55,496 bases of DNA. It comes from Deltaproteobacteria bacterium. Its GTDB lineage: Bacteria > Desulfobacterota > Desulfarculia > Adiutricales > Adiutricaceae. The position numbers were made by a program, and so were the translations under genes. The notes beneath the pieces were generated by a model. The model was not told where the DNA came from and searched no databases. It saw nothing but the letters and a program-made list of their open reading frames with translations. Position 1 is the first letter of the stretch, and each line of letters opens with the position of its first letter. This document shows, one piece after another, positions 6,943 to 45,007 of this stretch. The stretch is taken from assembly GCA_031264145.1 (NCBI GenBank), contig JAISEK010000052.1, positions 1 to 55,496 on the forward strand, read 5' to 3'.

Positions 6943-7749
6943 ATGAGAAAGAAGGAAAAGCACAGTCCACTGGTCGCGGCTGGCCTTCTGGGCCTGGCCC
7001 TGGCCGCCTCCCTCCCCGCCGGCCCGGCCCAGGCCTTCGAGCCGGAGGCCAGGGAGATAATGGCCAGGGTCTACGACCGCCCCGACGGCGACGACCGCCA
7101 CACGGAGCTGACCATGATCCTGGAAAACAGGCAGGGCCGGACACGCAGGCGCTCGGTCGAGACCTTTTCCAAGGACCAAGGGCCTGACCGCAAGAGCGTC
7201 ATGATCTTCCTGGAGCCAAGCGACGTCAAGGGAACCATGTTCCTCAGCTGGGAGTACGACGAGCCCGGCCGGGACGACGACAAGTGGCTCTACCTGCCGG
7301 CCCTGCGCAAGGACAGGCGGATCAGCGGTGCCTCGCGGAAGGAGTACTTCATGGGGACCGACTTCACCTACGACGACATGGGCCGGCGCCATCCGGGCAA
7401 GGACGAGCAGAGGATCATCGGCCGGGAGGCCGTCAACGGGCGCGAGACCGTGGTCATCGAGTGCCTGCCAGTGGATTCCGGCGAGAGCTACTCCAAGAGG
7501 ATAGCCTGGGTGGCCACTGGCCTCGACCTCATCGTCAAGGGCGAGTACTACGACAAGGACGGGCTCCTCAAGGTCTTCGAGGTCAAGACAATCAGGGAGC
7601 AGGATGGCTATTTCGATGTCGCCGACTGCCTGATGCGCAACGTGGTCACCGGCCACCAGACCAGAATGGTCTCGGACATGATCGAGTATGACCAGGGCCT
7701 CGACGATTCCCTCTTCAGCGTGGCCACCATCCAGCGCGGCCGGTTCTGA
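6943..7749 (+). CDS. LolA-like outer-membrane lipoprotein-sorting protein
   Basis: The 268-residue protein has a signal peptide (cleavage after PAQA, about residue 31) and the beta-rich sequence of the LolA-like family often annotated 'outer membrane lipoprotein-sorting protein'. Typical pieces include SVMIFLEPSDVKGTMFL, KWLYLPALRKDRRI and YFMGTDFTYDDM. Members carry a hydrophobic cavity and are usually encoded beside MMPL exporters, as here, so carrying lipid or a hydrophobic compound across the periplasm is likely. AAGGACGGGAAG precedes the ATG. It lies 27 bases after the ABC gene and its stop overlaps the next start by one base (TGATG), so it is part of the operon. Confidence 0.85.
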   Translation: MRKKEKHSPLVAAGLLGLALAASLPAGPAQAFEPEAREIMARVYDRPDGDDRHTELTMILENRQGRTRRRSVETFSKDQGPDRKSVMIFLEPSDVKGTMFLSWEYDEPGRDDDKWLYLPALRKDRRISGASRKEYFMGTDFTYDDMGRRHPGKDEQRIIGREAVNGRETVVIECLPVDSGESYSKRIAWVATGLDLIVKGEYYDKDGLLKVFEVKTIREQDGYFDVADCLMRNVVTGHQTRMVSDMIEYDQGLDDSLFSVATIQRGRF

Positions 7750-9101
7750 TGGCCAGGGTGGCCGCCGCCATCGGCCTCATGGGCTTCTGGCTCCTGTCGC
7801 CGGCGGTGGCCGCCTGGGGCCCCCTGTCCCCAGGCGCCTGCTGGGCCGCGACGGCAGGCGGTGACGGCGGCTACGGAGAGCCAGGGTGGCCGGACGGGGC
7901 AGGTGGATCGGGCCGGGCCGTGGAGGTGGATGGCATCACCGGCCCAAAGACCAGTATCTCCGGGTTCATCGAGGCCATCAGGTCCCAGGGCCTCAAGGGC
8001 CCGGGCAAGACCATAACCTCCAGGGTGAAGCTCCGCCTGGAGGCGGCCCTCGAGTTCGAGGGCCTTTACGGGCTGGCCTCGGCCCAGGCCGAGAGGAATT
8101 GGGCCATCGGCTCGGAGACGGGCATCGATCTCCATGAGGTTTGGATCGAACACGTTGGGGAAGGCTTCGATGTCAGGGTCGGACGCCAAATCATCATCTG
8201 GGGCAAGGCCGACGGCATACAGATTACTGACCTTGTCTGCCCCCCGGACTATACCGAGTTCATCACCAGGGGGCTAGACGAGATAAGGCAGCCGGTGGAG
8301 GCGGCCAGGCTGCGTTTTTTGGGCAGGGTGGTCAACCTGGAGCTCATCTGGATCCCCTTCTTCCGGGCCGGCGTCAGTCCCCGGCCCGGAAATCCCTGGT
8401 ATCTGGGCGACCCCGCCAGGGGGCCAGGCTGGGAGGCCAGGGAATTGAAACCAGGGGGAAGCCTCGGGGACGGCGAGATTGCCATGAAGGCCTCGGCCTT
8501 CCTCCCCGGCCTTGACTTCGCCGCCTCGGTCTTCTACACCCACGACGATTTTCCCGTCCTGGGTCCCATAGTCCCTGGCCAGGGCGGGACGCCAGGTTTC
8601 CGCGAGAGCCGCTTCCGCCGCATGACCGTTCTGGGGCTCGAGATGTCAAGGCCGACCGGCAATCTCGTCATCAGGGCCGAGACGGCGGCCCTGCTGGGCC
8701 AAAGGAGGCAAAACCCGGATCCTCTCGGGCAGCCGGTCAGGCAGGACGGCCTCAAGTGGCTCTTCGGCCTGGATTGGACACCCGGCGACGATTGGACGGT
8801 CTCGGGCCAGCTCGCGGCCGACCAGATCCTGGGAAGAAACAAGGCCGGCCTGCCTCCGGAAAGCTATACCGCCACGTTAAATGTATCGAAGAAACTATTT
8901 AACCAGATCCTCACGGTGACCAACATGATATATGGCGATATCAACAATTCTGGGTTCTATGACTCCCTGAAAGTGGAGTACGAGGCCATGGATGGCCTGA
9001 TCATATCCGTTGGGACCGACATATTTTGGGGCCATGAAGGCCGCTTCGCCCTGTATAGGGACAACAGCCAGGCCTGGGCCAAGGTCAAGTATTATTTTTA
9101 A
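7749..9101 (+). CDS. DUF1302-like outer-membrane beta-barrel protein
   Basis: This 450-residue protein has an N-terminal signal segment (LMGFWLLSPAVAAWG) and then a series of amphipathic beta strands ending in ...AWAKVKYYF, a C-terminal aromatic typical of outer-membrane barrels. VRVGRQIIIWGKADGIQITD and the PVEAARLRFLG region fit the DUF1302 family, whose genes often accompany MMPL/RND exporters. Its ATG overlaps the LolA-like stop. I infer an outer-membrane exit or entry channel working with the exporter and the LolA-like carrier. The last 200 bases become AT-richer toward the AT-rich spacer that follows. Confidence 0.72.
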   Translation: MARVAAAIGLMGFWLLSPAVAAWGPLSPGACWAATAGGDGGYGEPGWPDGAGGSGRAVEVDGITGPKTSISGFIEAIRSQGLKGPGKTITSRVKLRLEAALEFEGLYGLASAQAERNWAIGSETGIDLHEVWIEHVGEGFDVRVGRQIIIWGKADGIQITDLVCPPDYTEFITRGLDEIRQPVEAARLRFLGRVVNLELIWIPFFRAGVSPRPGNPWYLGDPARGPGWEARELKPGGSLGDGEIAMKASAFLPGLDFAASVFYTHDDFPVLGPIVPGQGGTPGFRESRFRRMTVLGLEMSRPTGNLVIRAETAALLGQRRQNPDPLGQPVRQDGLKWLFGLDWTPGDDWTVSGQLAADQILGRNKAGLPPESYTATLNVSKKLFNQILTVTNMIYGDINNSGFYDSLKVEYEAMDGLIISVGTDIFWGHEGRFALYRDNSQAWAKVKYYF

Positions 9102-9198
9102 TCCAATCCAATTGTTATTATAATTGTATAAATTTATTTATATAATTGATTATAATTTAATATAAATTATTAATATAATATGTTTGTGAGGTTGTCAA
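9102..9198. other. AT-rich operon spacer with hairpin
   Basis: This 97-base, almost pure A/T spacer sits between otherwise tightly packed genes. It contains an imperfect inverted repeat (AATTGTATAAAT/ATTTATATAATT). It may hold an internal promoter or lower read-through into the MMPL gene. A GTGAGG lies shortly before the next ATG. Confidence 0.45.
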
Positions 9199-11547
9199 AT
9201 GTTTGACGCCACCAGAGTGAACGATCGGTTCAGATCAATCACCGAAACGGTAGTCCGGCACCGGTTCCTGTTTTTGACCGGAACGCTTCTCCTGACGGCC
9301 ATTCTGGCCTCGGGACTGCCCCGCCTGCAGGTGGACACCAGCCAGGAGAGTTGGTTTCTCGAGGGCGATGAGGCCTTGCTGGCCCAGGCGCGCGTGGAAG
9401 AGATTTTCGGCAAGGACGATTTCTGCGCCGTCCTGGTCAGCGCCGACAACATCACTGCCAGGGAAAACCTCGCGCTCATACGCGAGCTAAGCCAGGAGTT
9501 CCTGGACCAGGTCCCCTATGCCGACGACGTCGTCTCCCTCACGGACTTCGAGTTCTCCCAGGGCGTCGAGGGAGGGATCGAGATCGTGAGCCTGGTGCCC
9601 GAGGACCTGGACGAGTTGACCGACCATGATTTCAATGGGGGAATCAGGGACAAGATTTTGGGGAAAAAGCTGTTTAGGGACAAGATCATATCAAAGGATG
9701 GGCGGGAGGCCTGGATCTTCCTGCGCCTCAAGCCGGTCCCGCCTTCCGAGACGCTGCAGGGCGGGGTCCACGCCGACTACCTGATCGGCGAGAAGTTCAT
9801 GGAGATCGCTGGTCAGGACAAGTATGCGTCCATTAACCCCAAGACCATCGGCATGCCGGTCCTCGACGTCGAGAAGAGGATATATTTTGCCCAGATTACC
9901 AGCAGACTGATACTCATGAGCATATTGGTCATCGCCGTGGCCATGGGGCTGGCCACCAGGAAATTCAGGGCGGTCTTCTTTCCTTTTCTGGTCACGATCA
10001 TGGCCTTGCTGGGGGTCTTCGGGCTGGAGGGGTACCTCGGATTCAAGTTCGATCCCGTGACAGTGTTCTTGCCCATCTTCCTGACGATGGCCATGTCCAC
10101 CTGCTACAGCATACATATACTTAATTTCTTTGACTCAAGGCTGCTGGAGACAGGCAACAGGCTAGAGTCGATCCTGTTTTCAACCCAGAAGGCCGGCTGG
10201 TCGCTTCTTTCCAGCGCCCTGACGACCATGGCCGGCCTCATTTCCTTTCTGGCCATCCCCATGAGGCCCATCCGTTTCGTGGGCCTGACGGCCGCCCTCC
10301 TTGTCGGGGCCACTTTTTTGCTGGTCTACGTCCTCATGCCCATTTTGCTGAGCTTTGGCCGGGGGGATACAGGGACGTCCAAGGCCTCGGGGCATGGCCT
10401 GGCCGACCGTCTCCTGGACGCGCTGGGCCGCCGGGTCCTAAACCGGCCCTGGCTGACGATGTCAGTGTTTTTCCTGTCGTTTGGCATCGTCATGACAGGC
10501 CTGAAGAACTTCGAGGTATCTTTCGACGTCAGGCGCACGTATGGGACCAAGGTCAAGTATATCCAACGGATGTTCGAGGTCAGCGAGTCGAGCCTGGGGT
10601 CGTTGTACTCGTACGGGATAGCCATCGAGCTCCCGAGGCCGGACATGGCCAAGGATCCGCTGGTCCTGGGAAACCTGAGGATCCTTGAGGATGAGATTGG
10701 CCAATACCGGCTGACCAAAAGGGTCTCCTCCCTGGTCGGGATTCTCGAGGACTTAAACCAGGTCCTCAACGACGGCCAGGAGGAATACCTGAGGCTCCCG
10801 GAAACCCCCGAGGAAGTGGCCCAGATGCTTCTGCTGTACGAGAACGCCGGCGGGCGGGAGACTGAAAGGTGGATCGACTACGACTACCAGAGGCTCCGTG
10901 TCATGGTGGAGGTGGACGACTACAACTCGGCCGAGATCCTGCGGACCATCGAGGGCGTCAAACGCCGGGCCGCCGAGCTCTTCCCCGGGGCCAACGTCAT
11001 CATGACCGGGTCCCTGACCCAGTTCACCGTCATGATGCAGTACATCACCTGGGGCCAGATCAAGACGTTCTACATGGCCCTCCTGACCATCGCCCTGGTC
11101 ATGTTCTGGACCTTCAGGAGCCTCAGGACGGCCCTTCTCGCCCTCATCCCCAACGCCGTGCCGGTCCTGGCGGTCAGCGGGCTGATGGGCTGGCTCTCGA
11201 TTCCCCTGGACATCATGACCGTGACCATCATTCCCATGCTCCTGGGTTTGGCCGTGGACGACACCATCCACTTCATCAACCATTCCTCGCGGGAATTCAT
11301 GCAGTGCGGCAACTACGGTCAAGCAGTCTACCTGACCGAGAAAAGCGTCGGAAAGGCCATCGTCCTGACCTCGGTTATCCTGATACTGGCCTTCAGCCCC
11401 TACCTGGTGGCCGACATCAGGGTGTTCTTCCATATGGGATTTCTCATCGCTCTGGGCGTCCTGGCCGCCCTTATGGCCGATCTCTTCGTCACCCCGGTCC
11501 TTCTCAAGGTTGCCCGGGCCTTTGGCCCGGAAAGGACTGGCCGATGA
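9199..11547 (+). CDS. MMPL/RND-family exporter (COG1033 type)
   Basis: The 782-residue inner-membrane protein has the two-fold architecture of RND superfamily exporters. A first membrane helix near residue 25 is followed by a periplasmic domain (about 50-230), a helix block (about 235-400), a helix near 420, a second periplasmic domain (about 440-620) and a second helix block (about 625-775). The second block contains LGLAVDDTIHFINHS, matching the conserved acidic motif in helix 4-type segments used for proton coupling. Single-gene RND proteins of this type move lipids or hydrophobic molecules. The LolA-like and DUF1302-like genes upstream would supply periplasmic and outer-membrane steps. 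Its stop overlaps the next gene's start (ATGA). Confidence 0.88.
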   Translation: MFDATRVNDRFRSITETVVRHRFLFLTGTLLLTAILASGLPRLQVDTSQESWFLEGDEALLAQARVEEIFGKDDFCAVLVSADNITARENLALIRELSQEFLDQVPYADDVVSLTDFEFSQGVEGGIEIVSLVPEDLDELTDHDFNGGIRDKILGKKLFRDKIISKDGREAWIFLRLKPVPPSETLQGGVHADYLIGEKFMEIAGQDKYASINPKTIGMPVLDVEKRIYFAQITSRLILMSILVIAVAMGLATRKFRAVFFPFLVTIMALLGVFGLEGYLGFKFDPVTVFLPIFLTMAMSTCYSIHILNFFDSRLLETGNRLESILFSTQKAGWSLLSSALTTMAGLISFLAIPMRPIRFVGLTAALLVGATFLLVYVLMPILLSFGRGDTGTSKASGHGLADRLLDALGRRVLNRPWLTMSVFFLSFGIVMTGLKNFEVSFDVRRTYGTKVKYIQRMFEVSESSLGSLYSYGIAIELPRPDMAKDPLVLGNLRILEDEIGQYRLTKRVSSLVGILEDLNQVLNDGQEEYLRLPETPEEVAQMLLLYENAGGRETERWIDYDYQRLRVMVEVDDYNSAEILRTIEGVKRRAAELFPGANVIMTGSLTQFTVMMQYITWGQIKTFYMALLTIALVMFWTFRSLRTALLALIPNAVPVLAVSGLMGWLSIPLDIMTVTIIPMLLGLAVDDTIHFINHSSREFMQCGNYGQAVYLTEKSVGKAIVLTSVILILAFSPYLVADIRVFFHMGFLIALGVLAALMADLFVTPVLLKVARAFGPERTGR

Positions 11548-36617: not shown

Positions 36618-38156
36618 ATGGCTATACCCGTCATCTCGTCCACAATATCGAACTCCACCAAGACTCGCTCCGGCTTTAGCTCCAACTCAAGCAAGCCTGT
36701 CTCGGCCTTGCGCCTGATCATGTCCTCCGATTTTGGCTCCCTGCTGGTCTGGGAGTTCGTCGGGCCCAGGGCCGTGGTCATAGGGCGAGGGGCCAGTTCC
36801 AGCCTTAGGCTCCCGGACACATCGGAATACCAGACCGTCTCGGGCTACCACTGCGTGATCGAGCTAAGCCGGAACAGGGCCTATCTCCGGGACTTGGGCA
36901 GCCTCAACGGGACTTTCCTCAACGGACACCTGGTCAGCCGGCGGGAGGAGGACCGCCTCCAGGGCGTGGCCGTAAGCGGCTTTGGCGTCAAGCTGGTGGA
37001 CGGCGACATAGTCACCTTGGCCGGCACCTTCAGCTTCCGGGTCGGCTTGGTCGATGATTCCTCGCTGGACCAGGCCGGAGCTCCGGTGACCATGGTCGAG
37101 GTTGCCCCCCTTTGCCCCTCCTGCGGCCGTCCCCACGACCCGGTGCCGCTCTCAAAATACGCCGACGTCCTTTGCCAGGAGTGCCGCCCCAATCCCCTGG
37201 CCTCACTAAGGCTCCTGAAGGCCGGCCTAAACCGCCGAGTAAAGACGCTCGATCCTTTAAAGGGCCTGCGCATCACCAAAACCCTTGGCCGAGGCTCAAC
37301 CTCGGCTGCGTTTCTAGCCGAGCGCAAGGACAACATGATGCCCATGGCCCTGAAGGTCATGTCGCCGGCCATCTCCGAGAATGAATGGGCCAGGAAGAGT
37401 TTCCTGCGGGAGGTGGCCATAGGCCGGGCCCTGAAACACGATAACGTCACCAAGCTCTACAGCTTCGGCTATTACGGGGGGGCCTACTTTTACCTCATGG
37501 AGTACTGCCGGGGTGGCAACAGCGAGGAAAAGCGCCTGGAGGCCGGTGGTGCGCTTTCCCCAGAGGCGGCCTTGGCCATAATCCTGCCTGTCCTGGACGG
37601 CCTCAGCTACATCCACAATGTCAAGTTGGCCGCCATGCGGGCCGACAGCGATCTTTCGTCCGAGTCCAGGGGGCTGGTCCACCGGGATCTCAAGCCGGCA
37701 AACATCTTCCTTGGCGGTCCCGATGGGACGGTACCCAAAATCGCCGATATCGGCGTTGGCAAGCTCTACAACAACAGCGACAGCTTCAGCAACACCCGCA
37801 CTGGCTCGGTGGCCGGCTCCCCGGCCACCATGCCCCGGCAGCAGGTGCTGAACTTCAAGAGGGCCGGGCCTGAGGTTGACATCTGGGCGGCTGCGGCTTC
37901 CCTCTACAAGCTCCTGACGGGCGACTACCCCCGGGACTTTCCAGACGAGGAGGACCCGTGGCGGGTGGTCCTCAATCGTCCGCCGGTGCCCATCCTGAAA
38001 AGGGGTCGCCATGTCCCGGCCCACCTGGCCTTGGCCATCGACGAGGCGCTGGTCGATAACCCCGCCATCAAGCACCAGGCCGCCCTGAGCCTCAAGAGAA
38101 GCCTGGTCGGGGCCGCCCTTCGCGACGGCGTGGCCGTGGCTGGACTGGGAACATGA
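36618..38156 (+). CDS. FHA domain - zinc ribbon - Ser/Thr protein kinase
   Basis: The 512-residue protein begins with a Ser/Thr-rich tail, then an FHA phosphothreonine-binding domain (about 45-145; GRGASSSLRLPD, SGYHCVIEL, LGSLNGTFLNG). A four-cysteine zinc ribbon (C166, C169, C186, C189) and a kinase domain (about 215-500) follow. In the kinase the glycine loop is LGRGSTSAAF, the ATP lysine is K246, and the catalytic HRDLKPAN has D357. The DFG motif reads D377-I-G, keeping the metal-binding Asp. It should phosphorylate proteins and bind phosphothreonine partners. The next kinase gene overlaps by 4 bases. No strong ribosome site is visible at the chosen ATG. Confidence 0.88.
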   Translation: MAIPVISSTISNSTKTRSGFSSNSSKPVSALRLIMSSDFGSLLVWEFVGPRAVVIGRGASSSLRLPDTSEYQTVSGYHCVIELSRNRAYLRDLGSLNGTFLNGHLVSRREEDRLQGVAVSGFGVKLVDGDIVTLAGTFSFRVGLVDDSSLDQAGAPVTMVEVAPLCPSCGRPHDPVPLSKYADVLCQECRPNPLASLRLLKAGLNRRVKTLDPLKGLRITKTLGRGSTSAAFLAERKDNMMPMALKVMSPAISENEWARKSFLREVAIGRALKHDNVTKLYSFGYYGGAYFYLMEYCRGGNSEEKRLEAGGALSPEAALAIILPVLDGLSYIHNVKLAAMRADSDLSSESRGLVHRDLKPANIFLGGPDGTVPKIADIGVGKLYNNSDSFSNTRTGSVAGSPATMPRQQVLNFKRAGPEVDIWAAAASLYKLLTGDYPRDFPDEEDPWRVVLNRPPVPILKRGRHVPAHLALAIDEALVDNPAIKHQAALSLKRSLVGAALRDGVAVAGLGT

Positions 38157-41086
38157 GCGATAACTCGTCCAGCCCCAACCTGGGCACGGCGGTTTGCCCA
38201 AAATGCGGCACCGGTTATCGGCTGAACGTCGACAATATGGGGCACCGCTCCATCTGCGTAAAGTGCGGCCAGAACTTCCATCTGCTGCCGGCCTCCACGG
38301 CTGCGGATACCCTGTGGATGGACACGACGGTGGCCTTGAACAGGCTGGCCGGCCGGGTCTGGGAAAAGGGCCTGGATCTGAGGGTCGGGCAGGTGGTCCT
38401 GGGCGTCTACGTGGTCCAGGAGGTGGTGGGGCGGGGAGGGCTGGGCCAGGTCTTCAAGGTCCGCCACCAGGAATGGCAGAGGGAGCTGGCCCTGAAGCTG
38501 CCATACCGCAACGTCATGGAGCCAGCGTACTTCCAGTCCCTCAAAAACGAGGCCGAGACCTGGGTGGCCCTGGGCCTCCACCCACACGTGGTCACCTGCC
38601 ACTACGTGAGGCCACTGATGGGCGTGCCCTCCATATTCATGGAGTACATATCAGGCGGCTCGGTCAAATCAATGATGGAGCCGACTGGCGGTGCCCTGCC
38701 GGTCATCCACCAGGGCGACGATCTCCAGAGGACCGCCAGGATCCTTGATCTGGCCATCCAGGCCACCTGGGGCCTGGAATACGCCCACAGCCGCGGGGTC
38801 CTCCATCTAGACATAAAGCCCCAGAATCTCCTGGTTGAGGAGGACTCTGGACGCCTTTTGGTGACTGACTTTGGCCTGGCCAGGGCGGCCAAGGACACAA
38901 AGCCGCCTTCGGACAGCGCCTCCCTCTGGCCAAGCGATCTCAAGGACGCCGTAGGGGGCGGCCAGGGCGAGGCTGGCACCAAGTCACCGGTCCAGGGAGG
39001 TTTCGGTACCATCCAGTACATGTCCCCCGAGGCCTCCGAGCGCAGCCAGCCGGCCGTGGGCTTTGACCTGTGGGCCATGGCCTTGACCATCCTCGAGCTT
39101 TTTCTGGGGCAGAGGCCCTGGGAGTATGGGGGTGCCGTGGGCGTGGCCCTGGATCAGTACCTGGCCTCGGTGAAGGCGGTCACCCCCCTGCCTGGTCCGG
39201 TTCTGGACTTCCTGCGCCGGGCCCTTAACGCCGACCCTTCCCGAAGGTACCAGAAGGCCCTGGACATGGCCTCGGAGTTGGCCTACATCCATGGCAAGGT
39301 GCTAGGGTCAGATTATCCCAGGACCAAGCCCTTCACCACCCCCGACTCGGCCGATAACCTGAACAACCGCGCGGTCTCCCTGCTCGACCTGGGGCGGCCC
39401 GAGGAAGCCGAGAGGCTGTGGCGCCAGGCCCTCAAGGAGGATCCGGGCCACCTCTGGGCCTTCTTCAACCTGGCCCTCCAGCGCTTCCACGCCAAGACTC
39501 TTTCCCCCGAGGCCTTCCAGGGCCGCCTGGAGGACTTGCTGAGGCTGGCCGCCGGCCGGAGCGTCCCCGAGCTGCCCCTGGCCCTGTCCGGGGCATATCT
39601 GGACCTGGGCCTCTGGTCAGAGGCCCAATCGGCTCTGGAGGCCTTCGGTGGGCCGGCCATGGCCTATGAGGCCAGGCGCCTCAGGGAGATACTGGACCGC
39701 CACCGCCAGAACCCCAACGCCGAGGAACGGGCCCGCTCGGCCCACCCGAGGCTTTCAATGATCTCGGCCAAGCCTGACGAGGACGCCGCCGCCAGACTGC
39801 TGCCACCGCTCCTGGCCAAGGCCTCCGCCGCCCTGGAGACCGGGAACCACGCCTTGGCCCTTGAGGCCTTGAGGGAGGCCCGGCTCCTGAAGCTCCCGAG
39901 ACGTTCGCAGGAGCTTGACGGCCAGTGGCGGTCGCTCTACTCGCATCTGTCCCGCCTGGAACTCAAGGACGTCGTGGAGGAGCGGATCCTCTCGGGCGGC
40001 CTGACCGGGGATCTTGCCTGCCAGGCCGCCGGGGTCTTGGTTCTGGCCGAGGACAGAACCCTCAGGTTCGTGAGAAACCCGGAGAGCCAGGCCCCAGGGA
40101 CCGTGGAGGTGCGCCTTTCCTCGGCCCTCGGCGCAGTCTCCCTTTCGCCAGACGCGGCCATCGCCGCCGCCCTGACCGAGGACGGGCACCTTTGGCTCTT
40201 CAACCCGCTGACCGGGGCCGGGGCGGGCCAGGCAATTGCCCACTCTGGTCCTGGCCGCGCCATGCGTTTTAGGCCGGACGGACGGCGGCTCTTCACTGCC
40301 GGGGATGACGGCCAGCTCAAGATGTGGGACACGGCCCACGGCTACCTGGACAAGGGCACGCCCCTGCTGGTCCGAAAGCTCTCCGAGCACCCCCTCCAGG
40401 CCATGGCCTTCTCGCCCAACGGCCTCATGCTCTCCGTGAGCGACGGCTACGTGGAATACCGCCTCTCAGCCGACAAGGTCTCCGGCCCGGTCCGGATCCT
40501 CCCCATGGCCTCCCCTGGGGAGGAACCCAGAAGCATAGCGGCCCTGGAGGCCGACCCCTTCAACCGCTACCTCGTCTCCGCCCACCAGTCGGGCCTGACC
40601 TTCCACCCCCTCTTCGACACCGACTGGCGGGCCGACCTTGGCGGCCTGGGGGCAGCGGCCAAGGCCCTGGCGGTCAGTCCCGACGCCCGGCTCTGGGCAG
40701 TGGCCCTGGCCGACGGCCGGCTGCTCCTGGGCCTGGCGCCGGACCAGCGCCAAAAGACCTTTTTGCCCTCAAGGCGCCTGGAGGCTGGCCATATCCACTT
40801 CCTGTGCTTTTACCCCGACAGTTCGCGCCTCCTGGCCGTGGGCCGGGCCGGGGTGGCCGTCTATGGCCTGGACTGGAACCTGGAGCCAGCGCCGCCCCGG
40901 CCCTGGGACAAGAGGTCGGAAACCATTCTGCGTAACTTCGTCGCCCGCCAAGGCGACCGCCCTTGCTCCGAGACCATGGCCCAGACGTTCCTGACGGAAC
41001 TGGTCTTCTCAGGTCTCCCCGGCCACGAGCCCCAAGGCACCTTGAGACGCCTTGGGGAGGCCCTTGAAAGACAAGGCCGAGACTGA
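38153..41086 (+). CDS. Zinc ribbon - Ser/Thr kinase - TPR - WD40-like protein
   Basis: The 977-residue protein starts with an MJ0042-like zinc ribbon (C15, C18, C35, C38). A kinase domain (about 85-390) follows: VGRGGLGQVF, K115, H218-L-D220 with IKPQNLL, and D239-F-G. The catalytic loop has Leu for the usual Arg of HRD, so control by activation-loop phosphorylation may differ. Residues about 395-560 contain TPR-like helices (NRAVSLLDLGRPEEAERLW), and about 610-930 a WD40-like beta-propeller with AVSLSPDAAIAAALTEDG and MAFSPNGLMLSVSD repeats. No membrane helix is evident, so it is probably cytosolic. It is coupled to the FHA kinase by an ATGA overlap. Confidence 0.87.
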   Translation: MSDNSSSPNLGTAVCPKCGTGYRLNVDNMGHRSICVKCGQNFHLLPASTAADTLWMDTTVALNRLAGRVWEKGLDLRVGQVVLGVYVVQEVVGRGGLGQVFKVRHQEWQRELALKLPYRNVMEPAYFQSLKNEAETWVALGLHPHVVTCHYVRPLMGVPSIFMEYISGGSVKSMMEPTGGALPVIHQGDDLQRTARILDLAIQATWGLEYAHSRGVLHLDIKPQNLLVEEDSGRLLVTDFGLARAAKDTKPPSDSASLWPSDLKDAVGGGQGEAGTKSPVQGGFGTIQYMSPEASERSQPAVGFDLWAMALTILELFLGQRPWEYGGAVGVALDQYLASVKAVTPLPGPVLDFLRRALNADPSRRYQKALDMASELAYIHGKVLGSDYPRTKPFTTPDSADNLNNRAVSLLDLGRPEEAERLWRQALKEDPGHLWAFFNLALQRFHAKTLSPEAFQGRLEDLLRLAAGRSVPELPLALSGAYLDLGLWSEAQSALEAFGGPAMAYEARRLREILDRHRQNPNAEERARSAHPRLSMISAKPDEDAAARLLPPLLAKASAALETGNHALALEALREARLLKLPRRSQELDGQWRSLYSHLSRLELKDVVEERILSGGLTGDLACQAAGVLVLAEDRTLRFVRNPESQAPGTVEVRLSSALGAVSLSPDAAIAAALTEDGHLWLFNPLTGAGAGQAIAHSGPGRAMRFRPDGRRLFTAGDDGQLKMWDTAHGYLDKGTPLLVRKLSEHPLQAMAFSPNGLMLSVSDGYVEYRLSADKVSGPVRILPMASPGEEPRSIAALEADPFNRYLVSAHQSGLTFHPLFDTDWRADLGGLGAAAKALAVSPDARLWAVALADGRLLLGLAPDQRQKTFLPSRRLEAGHIHFLCFYPDSSRLLAVGRAGVAVYGLDWNLEPAPPRPWDKRSETILRNFVARQGDRPCSETMAQTFLTELVFSGLPGHEPQGTLRRLGEALERQGRD

Positions 41087-41285: not shown

Positions 41286-42572
41286 TTATTTACGAGCATT
41301 TAGACCAATTGTTTCAGCTTCTTTTTCTAGCATAAATATTGACTTGCATATATTTTTATATAATGAATCAAAGAAAATATCAGCGCTTCTATTTATTATT
41401 AATATCTCATTTAAACAGCAATCTACTTTATTTAAAATATCTTTAATAATATTTTTAATTGTCATTGATATATCTACAGTGCTTATACGTACATCATTAG
41501 CAAATTTAATCCATTCTTCACTTTTGATTTTATATAATTTATTTTTATCGCCATATTTCATCGCAAAATTATTGTCTAAGTTAGGATAACTTAATGTTGA
41601 TAATATATCATAAAATGGTGCTAATCTTTTTCCAGTTAATTTGTTATCATAAATAATTGAATAATTCTTGCCATGCGCATCACAATTACCTATTATATAA
41701 TTAAATATAGATGCTTTAATAAAATTTTCAAGATCTAAATATTTATTATTTAGCTGACTATTTAAAATTAAATCAGTACATTTTTTAAAATTTGGACCAT
41801 TTTGTTCTTCATATTTTCGTTGAGGAGATATATTTAATGCTTGGCAAAAATCTTCTTGATGTAGTCTTATTATAGTGCCGTCTTCAGTTTTAGCACGATC
41901 ATAACGTTCTAATATTAATACGTTTGTATTTTCAATAGTAATTATTTTTGATTTTGTCACTGATAAACCAATTGAATCAGCTAAATTTAGACAAAAATAT
42001 TCATTCTCTACTAAAAATTTATAATTATCTGATTGTATCTTCATGATAATTGTCGTTGGCGAATTTGAACCGTCTTCTGGCAAATAAAATCTGTCATTTT
42101 TTGTATATAGAGGGATTTTATCCTGGGCCCCGGCTATCGACAACTTGGCTCCAAGCCCTTTGAGCAAAGGGGGCCGATCCTTGAATGACTTGGCGGCCAA
42201 GGCTTCCAACTGGTCGGTTACGTCCCGGTAGGCACTTGCCGGCCTTAGATCCTCCCAACCCTCTGGGCCAATGCTCAAAGCCCCGGCGCAATCAAGGCCA
42301 TAAGTCGTGAGATAATCGTAAAGGACATTATCATCAAAAGATGTCTTGTCCATGATGGCCCAATAGGCTGGGCCTTCAATCAATAAATTCCTAAAAAAAT
42401 TCGTGCTCCGTTCCGGGCCATGTTTTTTCATCTCCGTGGGCAAGGACAGGGAAATGGCCGTAAACCCCTGAGAAAGCCAGGAGTCGGCGTATTCGAACAC
42501 CACGAGGTTATCTTCCTCGGGGTACAAATAGCCAACCAATCTCTCGTCCCAACTAACCGTCAATCTGGACAT
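41286..42572 (-). CDS. HipA-like Ser/Thr kinase toxin, orphan and mosaic
   Basis: From the ATG at 42572 the product is 428 residues. It has an N-terminal HipA cap (SRLTVSWDERLVGYLYPE), a GAQDKIPL segment, HQEDFCQAL and the catalytic GNCDAHGKNYSI followed by LAPFYDILST, all HipA hallmarks. HipA kinases inactivate a translation factor or tRNA synthetase and are normally paired with a HipB DNA-binding antitoxin. No HipB gene is visible on either side. Codons for roughly the first 150 residues are GC-rich and the remainder is strongly AT-rich, with the switch near 42118. A longer start at 42755 is possible but adds sequence outside the family. Confidence 0.82.
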   Translation of the reverse strand: MSRLTVSWDERLVGYLYPEEDNLVVFEYADSWLSQGFTAISLSLPTEMKKHGPERSTNFFRNLLIEGPAYWAIMDKTSFDDNVLYDYLTTYGLDCAGALSIGPEGWEDLRPASAYRDVTDQLEALAAKSFKDRPPLLKGLGAKLSIAGAQDKIPLYTKNDRFYLPEDGSNSPTTIIMKIQSDNYKFLVENEYFCLNLADSIGLSVTKSKIITIENTNVLILERYDRAKTEDGTIIRLHQEDFCQALNISPQRKYEEQNGPNFKKCTDLILNSQLNNKYLDLENFIKASIFNYIIGNCDAHGKNYSIIYDNKLTGKRLAPFYDILSTLSYPNLDNNFAMKYGDKNKLYKIKSEEWIKFANDVRISTVDISMTIKNIIKDILNKVDCCLNEILIINRSADIFFDSLYKNICKSIFMLEKEAETIGLNARK

Positions 42573-43207
42573 AAGGCCTTTGCCCTGTGCACACTGGCCA
42601 TGGCCGGTGGTGGGCTCTCCTTTTGCCAAAAATATACTCCATGGCACTGATGGGCCACTTTCTTTAGCCGTGAAGATGTTTCGGATGGACCCTGTCAGGC
42701 CAATCGTTACCATTTTCCGCATGCCTACGTAATGCCTGCCCTCTCCCCTGCACAAGGATGTCGCTTCCTTAAGGCAAGTTCCGCAGAAGTAGCTTTACTA
42801 TGGCCAGGCTTATCTTTCTTAAACAACACTTTGAGTTCAATTATAAAACTCGTTGACATATTTTGCAAGGAATTATTTTTAACTCGTTTACCTTTTTATA
42901 CTAAAATCGCCAACCATCCCTCAACCATTGGGTGACTCCTACCGGGAACCACGATCGTTTCCCTTGCGTACCCCTGGTCCGGCGCATGGACTGACTGCAA
43001 CCAGGCCAGTCACGATCGGCCTGGGATATGGCCAGGACTAAGCCTGATTTCTTGGCTCGAAAATTGCTTTGGATTATGGTATGCTGGCCAAAGTCTGCAA
43101 CTCGGCCAGTGGACCGGGGGGAGTGACAGGCTCGCCCTTACGACCAAACGGTGGCTGACCTCTCCCGAAAGTCATGGCCAGTCAATCACCAGAATCGGAG
43201 GCTTGCT
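42573..43207. other. Gene-free spacer upstream of HipA-like gene
   Basis: No HipB-like frame is seen on either strand. The spacer is mixed in composition, with an AT-richer patch at about 42830-42910 that may hold the promoter of the HipA-like gene. Confidence 0.5.
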
Positions 43208-43678: not shown

Positions 43679-45007
43679 ATGTTTAGGGATCTGTCCAGTT
43701 ATTTCTTCCAGCATTTTTGGGCCTGCCTGATCGTCCTTTGCCTGTTGGGCCAGATGGTGACCTTCTGGCTCTGGCACAGGTTGTTTGCCTCGAAGCCGGT
43801 CAGGCTGGCCGTCAAGATGGGCTATCTTTTTCTGAACCTGGCCTGGATTGTCTGCCTCTGCCTGTTTCACATGGGCAAGATGCGCGGCCCCTGGTGGACC
43901 TTCATCGGCCGTCCGGCCATCTCCTGGGAGATCTTCAGCTTCATCCTGGTCATTCCAACGGTCCTGGTCGGCCTTGTTTGGCTGGCCTCAAGATTGCTGG
44001 CCTGGATAATCCACGGCTGGCGGCGCCTGAAGCTGGACAAGGCCAGGGAGGCGGACAGTGGGCGCCGACTTTTCCTGAAGAGGGCCGGGGCCGCCGGCCT
44101 GGTGGCCGCCACGGGACTGTGCGGGTTTGGCGTGCTGGCCCAGACCATCCGCCCAGGGGTGGCCAGACGGGAACTCTTTTTCCCTGGCCTGCCGGCGGAA
44201 CTGGATGGCTTCGTAATCTGCCAGCTGACCGACCTCCATCTGGGCATGTGGTCAAACCAATGGGAACTGGAGACGGCCATACGGACGGCGGGCGAGGAAA
44301 AGCCAGATCTGGTCGTCATTACCGGTGATCTGGTCGATAGGGATCCGGAAAACGCCCGCCTCTATCACGAGCCGTTGAGACTACTGCGCCAAGTGCCCCA
44401 TGGAGTCTTCGCTGTCCTTGGCAACCATGACCACTATGCCGGGGCGACGCGGGTGGCCGAGCTTCTGGACGGGTACGGCCTGACCATGCTGGTCGAGAAA
44501 CGCCACAATCTGCCAGGAGCCCCCATCACCATTGTGGGCCTCGACGACCAGAGTTCTGGTGGCTGGATGGGTTCCTACACAAAACGCAGAAGGGAGGGGC
44601 TCGAGACCGACCCAGATGCCCTGACCTTTGGCCGCCTGACCGGGCCTGCCAGACGGCCCGGCGACTTCTCCCTTTTGCTGAACCATCGTCCCGAGGGCTA
44701 CCGCCAGGCCAGCCGAGAGGGCTTCGACCTCTACCTGGCCGGGCACACCCACGGAGGCCAATACCAGTTGCCCTGGGACGATCAGGGTAACCTGGCCGCC
44801 CTGTTCTACAGGTACTCGAGCGGCCTCTACCACGACCACGACTGCTATCTGAACGTCAGCCGAGGCCTGGCTTCTGTCGGCTTGCCCTTTCGGTTGTTCG
44901 CCTGGCCGGAGATAGACGTCCTGACCCTCAGAAAACCCCGCCATGATGCTTTATCAGATTTCCGGAACATCAATAAAGACAGCCAAGGAATTATGATGCC
45001 CATGTAA
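43679..45007 (+). CDS. Membrane-anchored metallophosphoesterase (YaeI-like)
   Basis: The 442-residue protein has three N-terminal membrane helices (about 12-35, 45-65 and 78-105) and a fourth segment at about 133-150 preceded by SGRRLFLKRAG, which looks like a twin-arginine signal inside the protein. A calcineurin-like phosphoesterase domain follows, with the metal ligands in TDLHLG, GDLVDRD, GNHDHY and AGHTHGGQ. It belongs to the YaeI/YkuE-like group, which includes lipid-headgroup hydrolases such as UDP-diacylglucosamine phosphatases; the substrate here is unknown. The catalytic domain is probably outside the cytoplasm. Confidence 0.88.
   Translation: MFRDLSSYFFQHFWACLIVLCLLGQMVTFWLWHRLFASKPVRLAVKMGYLFLNLAWIVCLCLFHMGKMRGPWWTFIGRPAISWEIFSFILVIPTVLVGLVWLASRLLAWIIHGWRRLKLDKAREADSGRRLFLKRAGAAGLVAATGLCGFGVLAQTIRPGVARRELFFPGLPAELDGFVICQLTDLHLGMWSNQWELETAIRTAGEEKPDLVVITGDLVDRDPENARLYHEPLRLLRQVPHGVFAVLGNHDHYAGATRVAELLDGYGLTMLVEKRHNLPGAPITIVGLDDQSSGGWMGSYTKRRREGLETDPDALTFGRLTGPARRPGDFSLLLNHRPEGYRQASREGFDLYLAGHTHGGQYQLPWDDQGNLAALFYRYSSGLYHDHDCYLNVSRGLASVGLPFRLFAWPEIDVLTLRKPRHDALSDFRNINKDSQGIMMPM

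Follow-up and report, generated by a model that had tools for sequence, protein, structure and literature searches.

Two genes for Ser/Thr kinases, referred to here as K1 and K2, overlap on the forward strand of the window, a 55,496-nucleotide stretch of DNA that corresponds to contig C86 of a 4.0-Mb genome (96% complete). The closest relatives are Deltaproteobacteria MAGs, with 71–84% identity in K1, and the host probably belongs to the Adiutricaceae of termite guts, a family described elsewhere (PMC9137090). An earlier sequence-only reading of this DNA had described overlapping kinase genes that each carry a four-cysteine ribbon, which is borne out by the open reading frames and by alignment of the cysteines (Table 1). 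Because the gene upstream of K1, encoding an MscS-type channel, is divergent and the gene downstream of K2, encoding a HipA-type protein, is convergent, K1 and K2 look like a two-gene operon and would be co-transcribed. The HipA-type kinase gene occupies positions 41286–42755 on the − strand.

The sequence-only reading had also stated that no phosphatase gene lies beside the pair. This holds for PP2C; outside the putative operon, 2.6 kb downstream of the pair, positions 43679–45007 encode a calcineurin-like metallophosphoesterase. Conserved neighbors were considered as a pointer to the output of the circuit and gave no clear partner, since only the divergent MscS-type gene (7 loci) and the metallophosphoesterase gene (3 loci) recur in relatives.

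Table 1. Features of the K1–K2 locus, in positions of the window
Feature	Position	Strand	Evidence or remark
K1 gene: FHA–zinc ribbon–Ser/Thr kinase, 512 aa	36618..38156	+	ORF, Pfam, orthologues
K1 FHA domain, residues 53–115	36774..36962	+	Phosphopeptide residues R57, S75, H78, and N97 kept in nearly all relatives
K1 ribbon, C166-x2-C169-x16-C186-x2-C189	37113..37184	+	Invariant in close relatives
K1 kinase domain, residues 217–500, RD type	37266..38117	+	K246, E265, H355-R356-D357, N362
K1 DIG motif, residues 377–379	37746..37754	+	Variant of DFG; relatives have DVG, DYG, or DFG
K1 activation-loop T393-x-T395	37794..37802	+	Aligns with PknB TQT (Thr171/Thr173)
ATGA overlap of K2 start and K1 stop	38153..38156	+	ORFs; same overlap in 13/19 relatives
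K2 gene: zinc ribbon–non-RD kinase–TPR–propeller, 977 aa	38153..41086	+	ORF, Pfam
K2 ribbon, C15-x2-C18-x16-C35-x2-C38, MJ0042-like	38195..38266	+	Lowest dN/dS of K2
K2 kinase domain, residues 86–367, non-RD	38408..39253	+	K115, E133, D220, N225, D239
K2 HLD motif, residues 218–220	38804..38812	+	
K2 conserved activation-loop insert PSDSASLWPSD, residues 252–262	38906..38938	+	Specific to the family, except genus g2
K2 TPR-like helical region, residues about 400–595	39350..39937	+	Pfam, structure model
K2 WD40-like β-propeller, residues about 600–911	39950..40885	+	Pfam, AlphaFold2 model, fold match

In K1, Pfam identifies an FHA domain (residues 53–115, E = 3e-14) followed by a protein kinase domain (Pkinase, residues 219–440, E = 5e-30). 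The FHA domain scores 53.6 bits against a cut-off of 20.7 bits and keeps Arg, Ser, and Asn in its binding loops, features by which K1 is predicted to be a phosphothreonine reader. Among the nearest relatives, dN/dS values indicate that the FHA, ribbon, and kinase domains are the most constrained parts of K1, with values of about 0.05–0.1 for FHA. The structure model of K1 is poor (pLDDT 52.7). In every K1 homologue tabulated, K246, E265, the HRD motif, N362, D377, and T393 are present, and T395 is kept in all of them except two paralogues.

The sequence-only reading rightly gave K1 an FHA domain and a DIG motif in place of DFG, as well as an HLD motif in place of HRD, TPRs, and a WD-like propeller to K2. 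Both DIG and HLD are invariant among close relatives and are therefore real rather than sequencing errors. The middle residue of the K1 DxG motif varies by lineage (the family has I, whereas f2, f3, and G308 have V, cyanobacteria Y, and paralogues F), so that DIG is a lineage variant and not a sign of inactivity. The possibility that either kinase is catalytically dead because of these substitutions was considered and rejected, since all active-site residues are present and the variants are lineage-wide; judged by alignment, DIG and HLD are lineage variants at positions not needed for phosphotransfer. With Pkinase scores above the cut-off and the Lys, Glu, catalytic Asp, Asn, and DxG Asp all present, K1 and K2 both classify as predicted Hanks-type Ser/Thr kinases.

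Among solved kinase domains, those nearest to K1 and K2 alike belong to PknB/StkP-type Hanks kinases, which share the activation-loop TxT with K1. The PASTA-kinase equivalog NF033483 gave 88.7 and 116.6 bits against a cut-off of 450 bits; unlike the PknB/StkP-type kinases, K1 and K2 are fused to FHA, ribbon, TPR, and propeller domains. FHA-kinases of the Chk2/Rad53 type in eukaryotes use FHA–phosphothreonine dimerization. Like these, K1 has its FHA domain N-terminal to an RD kinase, and a Rad53 chain is among the matches of the K1 profile. The likeness is one of design rather than of demonstrated descent, and K1 differs in having a ribbon and in belonging to a bacterial kinase subfamily.

For K2, Pfam identifies a kinase domain (Pkinase, residues 86–367, E = 5.5e-32), a TPR (residues 401–433), and a WD40 repeat (residues 702–726). 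The AlphaFold2 model has a pLDDT of about 90 over residues 600–911 and is reliable only in the propeller and in much of the helical regions and the C-lobe. The best PDB match of the modeled propeller is that of PkwA (TM 0.81–0.84 by target length), and by its predicted kinase and C-terminal β-propeller K2 fits the WD40-type bacterial Ser/Thr kinases. It shares this architecture with the WD40/TPR kinases, such as PkwA of Thermomonospora and the STKs of Planctomycetota (PMC11032199), from which it differs in its N-terminal ribbon, its non-RD character, and its consistent FHA-kinase partner. At the HRD position, K2 proteins of this lineage have HLD, HQD, or HHD and are thus non-RD throughout, and they have no TxT; K2-like kinases of the phylum that are less closely related have HRD. 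Most of the family has K115, E133, D220, N225, and D239, and these residues are under purifying selection. The PSDSASLWPSD insert in the K2 loop is a candidate docking or phosphorylation site.

All eight ribbon cysteines are invariant in every family relative that covers them. In the search with the MJ0042-type zinc finger model TIGR02098 (NCBIfam), the K2 ribbon scored 16.2 bits, below the cut-off of 20.9 bits, with the CxxC pairs and their spacing present. The sequence-only reading had suggested that the pair possibly senses zinc or redox state through the ribbons, which would switch kinase activity upon metal loss or thiol oxidation, and both the invariance of the cysteines among close relatives and the strong constraint on the ribbon, the most constrained part of K2, are in line with this idea. 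Conserved CxxC ribbons, however, are usually structural, and the pair does not need them: no ribbon is found in a K1/K2 pair from Nostoc, in K1 of Stanieria, or in the paralogous K2s, and K1 of G040 has lost the cysteines. In f2 and G308, K1 has two ribbons. From this distribution the ribbons are judged to be accessory, which speaks against a core role in sensing zinc or redox state; we consider such a role improbable and the earlier suggestion unsupported.

Co-conservation of the two genes, on which the sequence-only reading had made its proposal depend, was found. In the close relatives first fetched, K2 directly follows K1 in 19/19 cases, 13 of them with the 4-base overlap. Both genes occur in 27 of the 37 family genomes, K2 only in three, K1 only in none, and neither in seven; of the 12 with a completeness of 90% or more, 11 carry both and one lacks both. 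Contig breaks inflate the apparent K1–K2 linkage. In the near-complete genome G002 (3 contigs), the genes are unlinked, one at 40 kb and the other at 4.10 Mb on a single contig of 4.48 Mb, which shows that the pair is retained even when unlinked. In neighboring families of the order, K1 lies beside a ribbon-bearing K2 of 1348–1390 aa (G037, G038, and G040); no K2 was found within the stretch fetched around K1 of a further order-level relative (G039). Upstream of K1 in G037 there is a YcaO-TPR gene (L110, 6592–8310, − strand; Pfam), and G038 has a counterpart at the same place (L111, 10266–12032, − strand), recognized by N-terminal sequence likeness only. At the search threshold used, K1 was absent from other families of the class.

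A tblastn search of plasmids showed that Nostoc and Stanieria also carry K1 homologues. In Nostoc sp. C057, the mobilizable plasmid p057_E has a K2 homologue immediately ahead of K1, in reversed order, and this ribbonless pair (L153, 5158–10338) adjoins an AAA_11/AAA_12 helicase-like gene. Kinase-domain trees of K1 and K2 are concordant on the main splits, with some long branches.

The two kinases could simply be transcribed together and serve separate pathways, in keeping with their different accessory domains and with the faster evolution of K2. It is hard to reconcile this with a pair that is kept across the order, recurs in paralogous clusters, is reversed on the Nostoc plasmid, and persists unlinked in G002, and we regard separate action as unlikely. 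An even less probable role is that of anti-phage defense kinases (PD-T4-6, MADS, or BREX-like). The PADLOC models PD-T4-6 and mad6 do match (E down to 2e-48), but unrelated control kinases do so equally well or better, and the scores are far from the NCBIfam cut-offs for mad6 and PglW. Furthermore, defense genes are patchy, whereas the pair is present in nearly every good family genome, with concordant trees.

In other members of the phylum, FHA, PP2C, and WD40 kinase genes stand side by side. These clusters (L005, L105, L107, and L124) have homologous K1 and K2 genes in the same order as in the window and a PP2C gene between them, whereas K1 and K2 of the window overlap directly with none between. 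In G308, from another family of the phylum, the order is K1–PP2C–K2, followed by a Clp/FtsH-like AAA+ M41 protease fusion. Judging from the PP2C gene that separates the kinases in G308 and in the paralogous clusters, the window operon could be a reduced form from which PP2C was lost; gain of PP2C in the other lineage might instead account for the difference, the rooting being weak. Of the phosphothreonine circuit put forward in the sequence-only reading, the coupled pair of reader, kinases, and scaffold is well supported, and the description "self-contained" is doubtful, given that the paralogous clusters carry a PP2C that is missing here.

A Clp/AAA+-type ATPase gene lies near two of these clusters; the window operon has none. 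In the G308 locus (L124, G308:C63, 9676–19164), the FHA-kinase, PP2C, and ribbon-kinase-WD40 genes are followed by a gene for a 1187-aa fusion of AAA_2, FtsH-type AAA, and M41 peptidase, and this kinase circuit is apparently tied to the AAA+ protease. A similar AAA+ gene, cut at the end of the locus, runs from position 9502 of L105 onward. Between it and the paralogous kinase cluster lies a gene for an FHA-GAF-HD-GYP-type protein (7634–9304), which possibly joins phosphothreonine reading to cyclic-di-GMP turnover.

The combination of FHA and kinase follows the same logic as PpkA/Fha (PMC3953482), and the pair could in principle switch a type VI secretion system by threonine phosphorylation, in the manner of PpkA/Fha/PppA. 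A search of the 96% complete host genome revealed no TssK, and the conserved neighbors of the pair include no secretion genes; the type VI genes and the adjacent PP2C of that pathway are both absent. VipB is represented in the genome by an isolated 60-residue fragment (G000:C175:51659–51835), which may be what is left of a former type VI secretion system. The link to type VI secretion raised in the sequence-only reading thus finds no support, and we consider it highly improbable, the least probable of the roles weighed here.

The two kinases have not decayed alike. In genus g2, the propeller is missing from K2 of G002, G003, and G004, and the motifs read NLD/DFA, HLD/DYG, and RLD/DYG, respectively, with the core Lys, Asp, and Asn remaining; K2 of G005, from the same genus, is full length with HLD/DFG. 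The stem of g2 accumulated 1.34 changes per site in K2 and 0.45 in K1, compared with 1.45 and 1.63, respectively, on the family stem. Decay has gone further in the paralogous K2 of G009, which has lost the VAIK Lys, the αC Glu, the catalytic Asp, and the DFG Asp and is, judging by these residues, a clear pseudokinase. It is encoded by a 571-codon open frame running off the contig (L107, G009:C306, 1–1715, − strand) and is adjoined by an intact FHA kinase gene and a PP2C gene. This decay of K2 beside an intact K1, both in g2 and in the G009 paralogue, makes K2 appear necessary as a folded partner, also with its catalysis weak or gone.

Co-inheritance, the RD/non-RD asymmetry, and the decay of K2 but not K1 make it the likeliest reading that K1 and K2 would form one complex, with K1 as the output kinase, K2 as a scaffold and activator that acts mainly by binding, and docking through FHA; we hold this reading with middling confidence. 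K1, with its RD kinase, PknB-like activation-loop threonines, and FHA reader, would be the output enzyme, and K2 would use its TPR and propeller surfaces to gather input and would activate K1 mainly through binding and positioning, any catalytic step of its own being secondary. The FHA domain could then dock on a phosphothreonine of K2 or of a neighboring K1 loop, so that the active state is locked and amplified, while the ribbons may serve as structural or interaction modules. Two observations speak against this scheme. The FHA asparagine N97 is lost in two K1 proteins of g2. In addition, since K2 keeps its catalytic residues under purifying selection, K2 catalysis probably matters in most of the family.

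The latter point touches on the main rival, a catalytic cascade in which an always-competent K2 phosphorylates the TRT loop of K1 and thereby switches K1 on, with the propeller recruiting substrates. Non-RD kinases are usually independent of loop phosphorylation, the catalytic residues of K2 do not vary within the family except in g2, and the K1 loop has PknB-type threonines. Such a cascade is difficult to square with the erosion of the K2 motifs in g2 and their abolition in the G009 paralogue, with K1 intact in both, and we regard it as a possible but less likely explanation than activation by binding.

A precedent for activation by binding exists in plants, where EFR, a non-RD kinase, acts allosterically and without catalysis to activate BAK1, an RD kinase (PMC10473708). 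EFR–BAK1 resembles K2/K1 in pairing a non-RD with an RD kinase and in that the partner can act without catalysis; it differs in that these are membrane receptors, with accessory domains unrelated to those of K1 and K2. Tentatively, and with clearly less confidence than we have in the complex itself, the pair could be a widespread bacterial counterpart, in which a propeller kinase that is evolving into a pseudokinase, and in some lineages already is one, switches on its FHA partner without catalysis.

We found no paper on this RD/non-RD kinase pairing in the open-access literature; every domain is known, and the pairing seems to be undescribed. Bacterial Hanks kinases have mostly been studied singly, whereas K1 and K2 have been locked together over long evolution. 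With its built-in reader, clean RD/non-RD split, and natural partner decay, the pair makes the possible use of pseudokinase-type allosteric partners by bacterial kinases directly testable with two proteins.

The overall picture points to a conventional phosphorylation circuit, in which dephosphorylation would be carried out by a PP2C encoded elsewhere. The host genome has three PP2C genes, on contigs C99, C43, and C81. The first lies in a paralogous cluster, where it overlaps an FHA-ribbon kinase gene. The C81 gene stands alone, and its type occurs in 28/37 family genomes; it is possible that a phosphatase of this type acts in trans. G002 and G004 have the pair and no C81-type PP2C at E ≤ 1e-20, so any such coupling is loose. 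The C43 gene is near a kinase gene and genes for VWA proteins and is TerY-like by resemblance only; the TerY-type VWA gene array at this locus (L068, 4075–12955), with the PP2C and kinase genes nearby, resembles a TerY-P triad in which the VWA genes are repeated.
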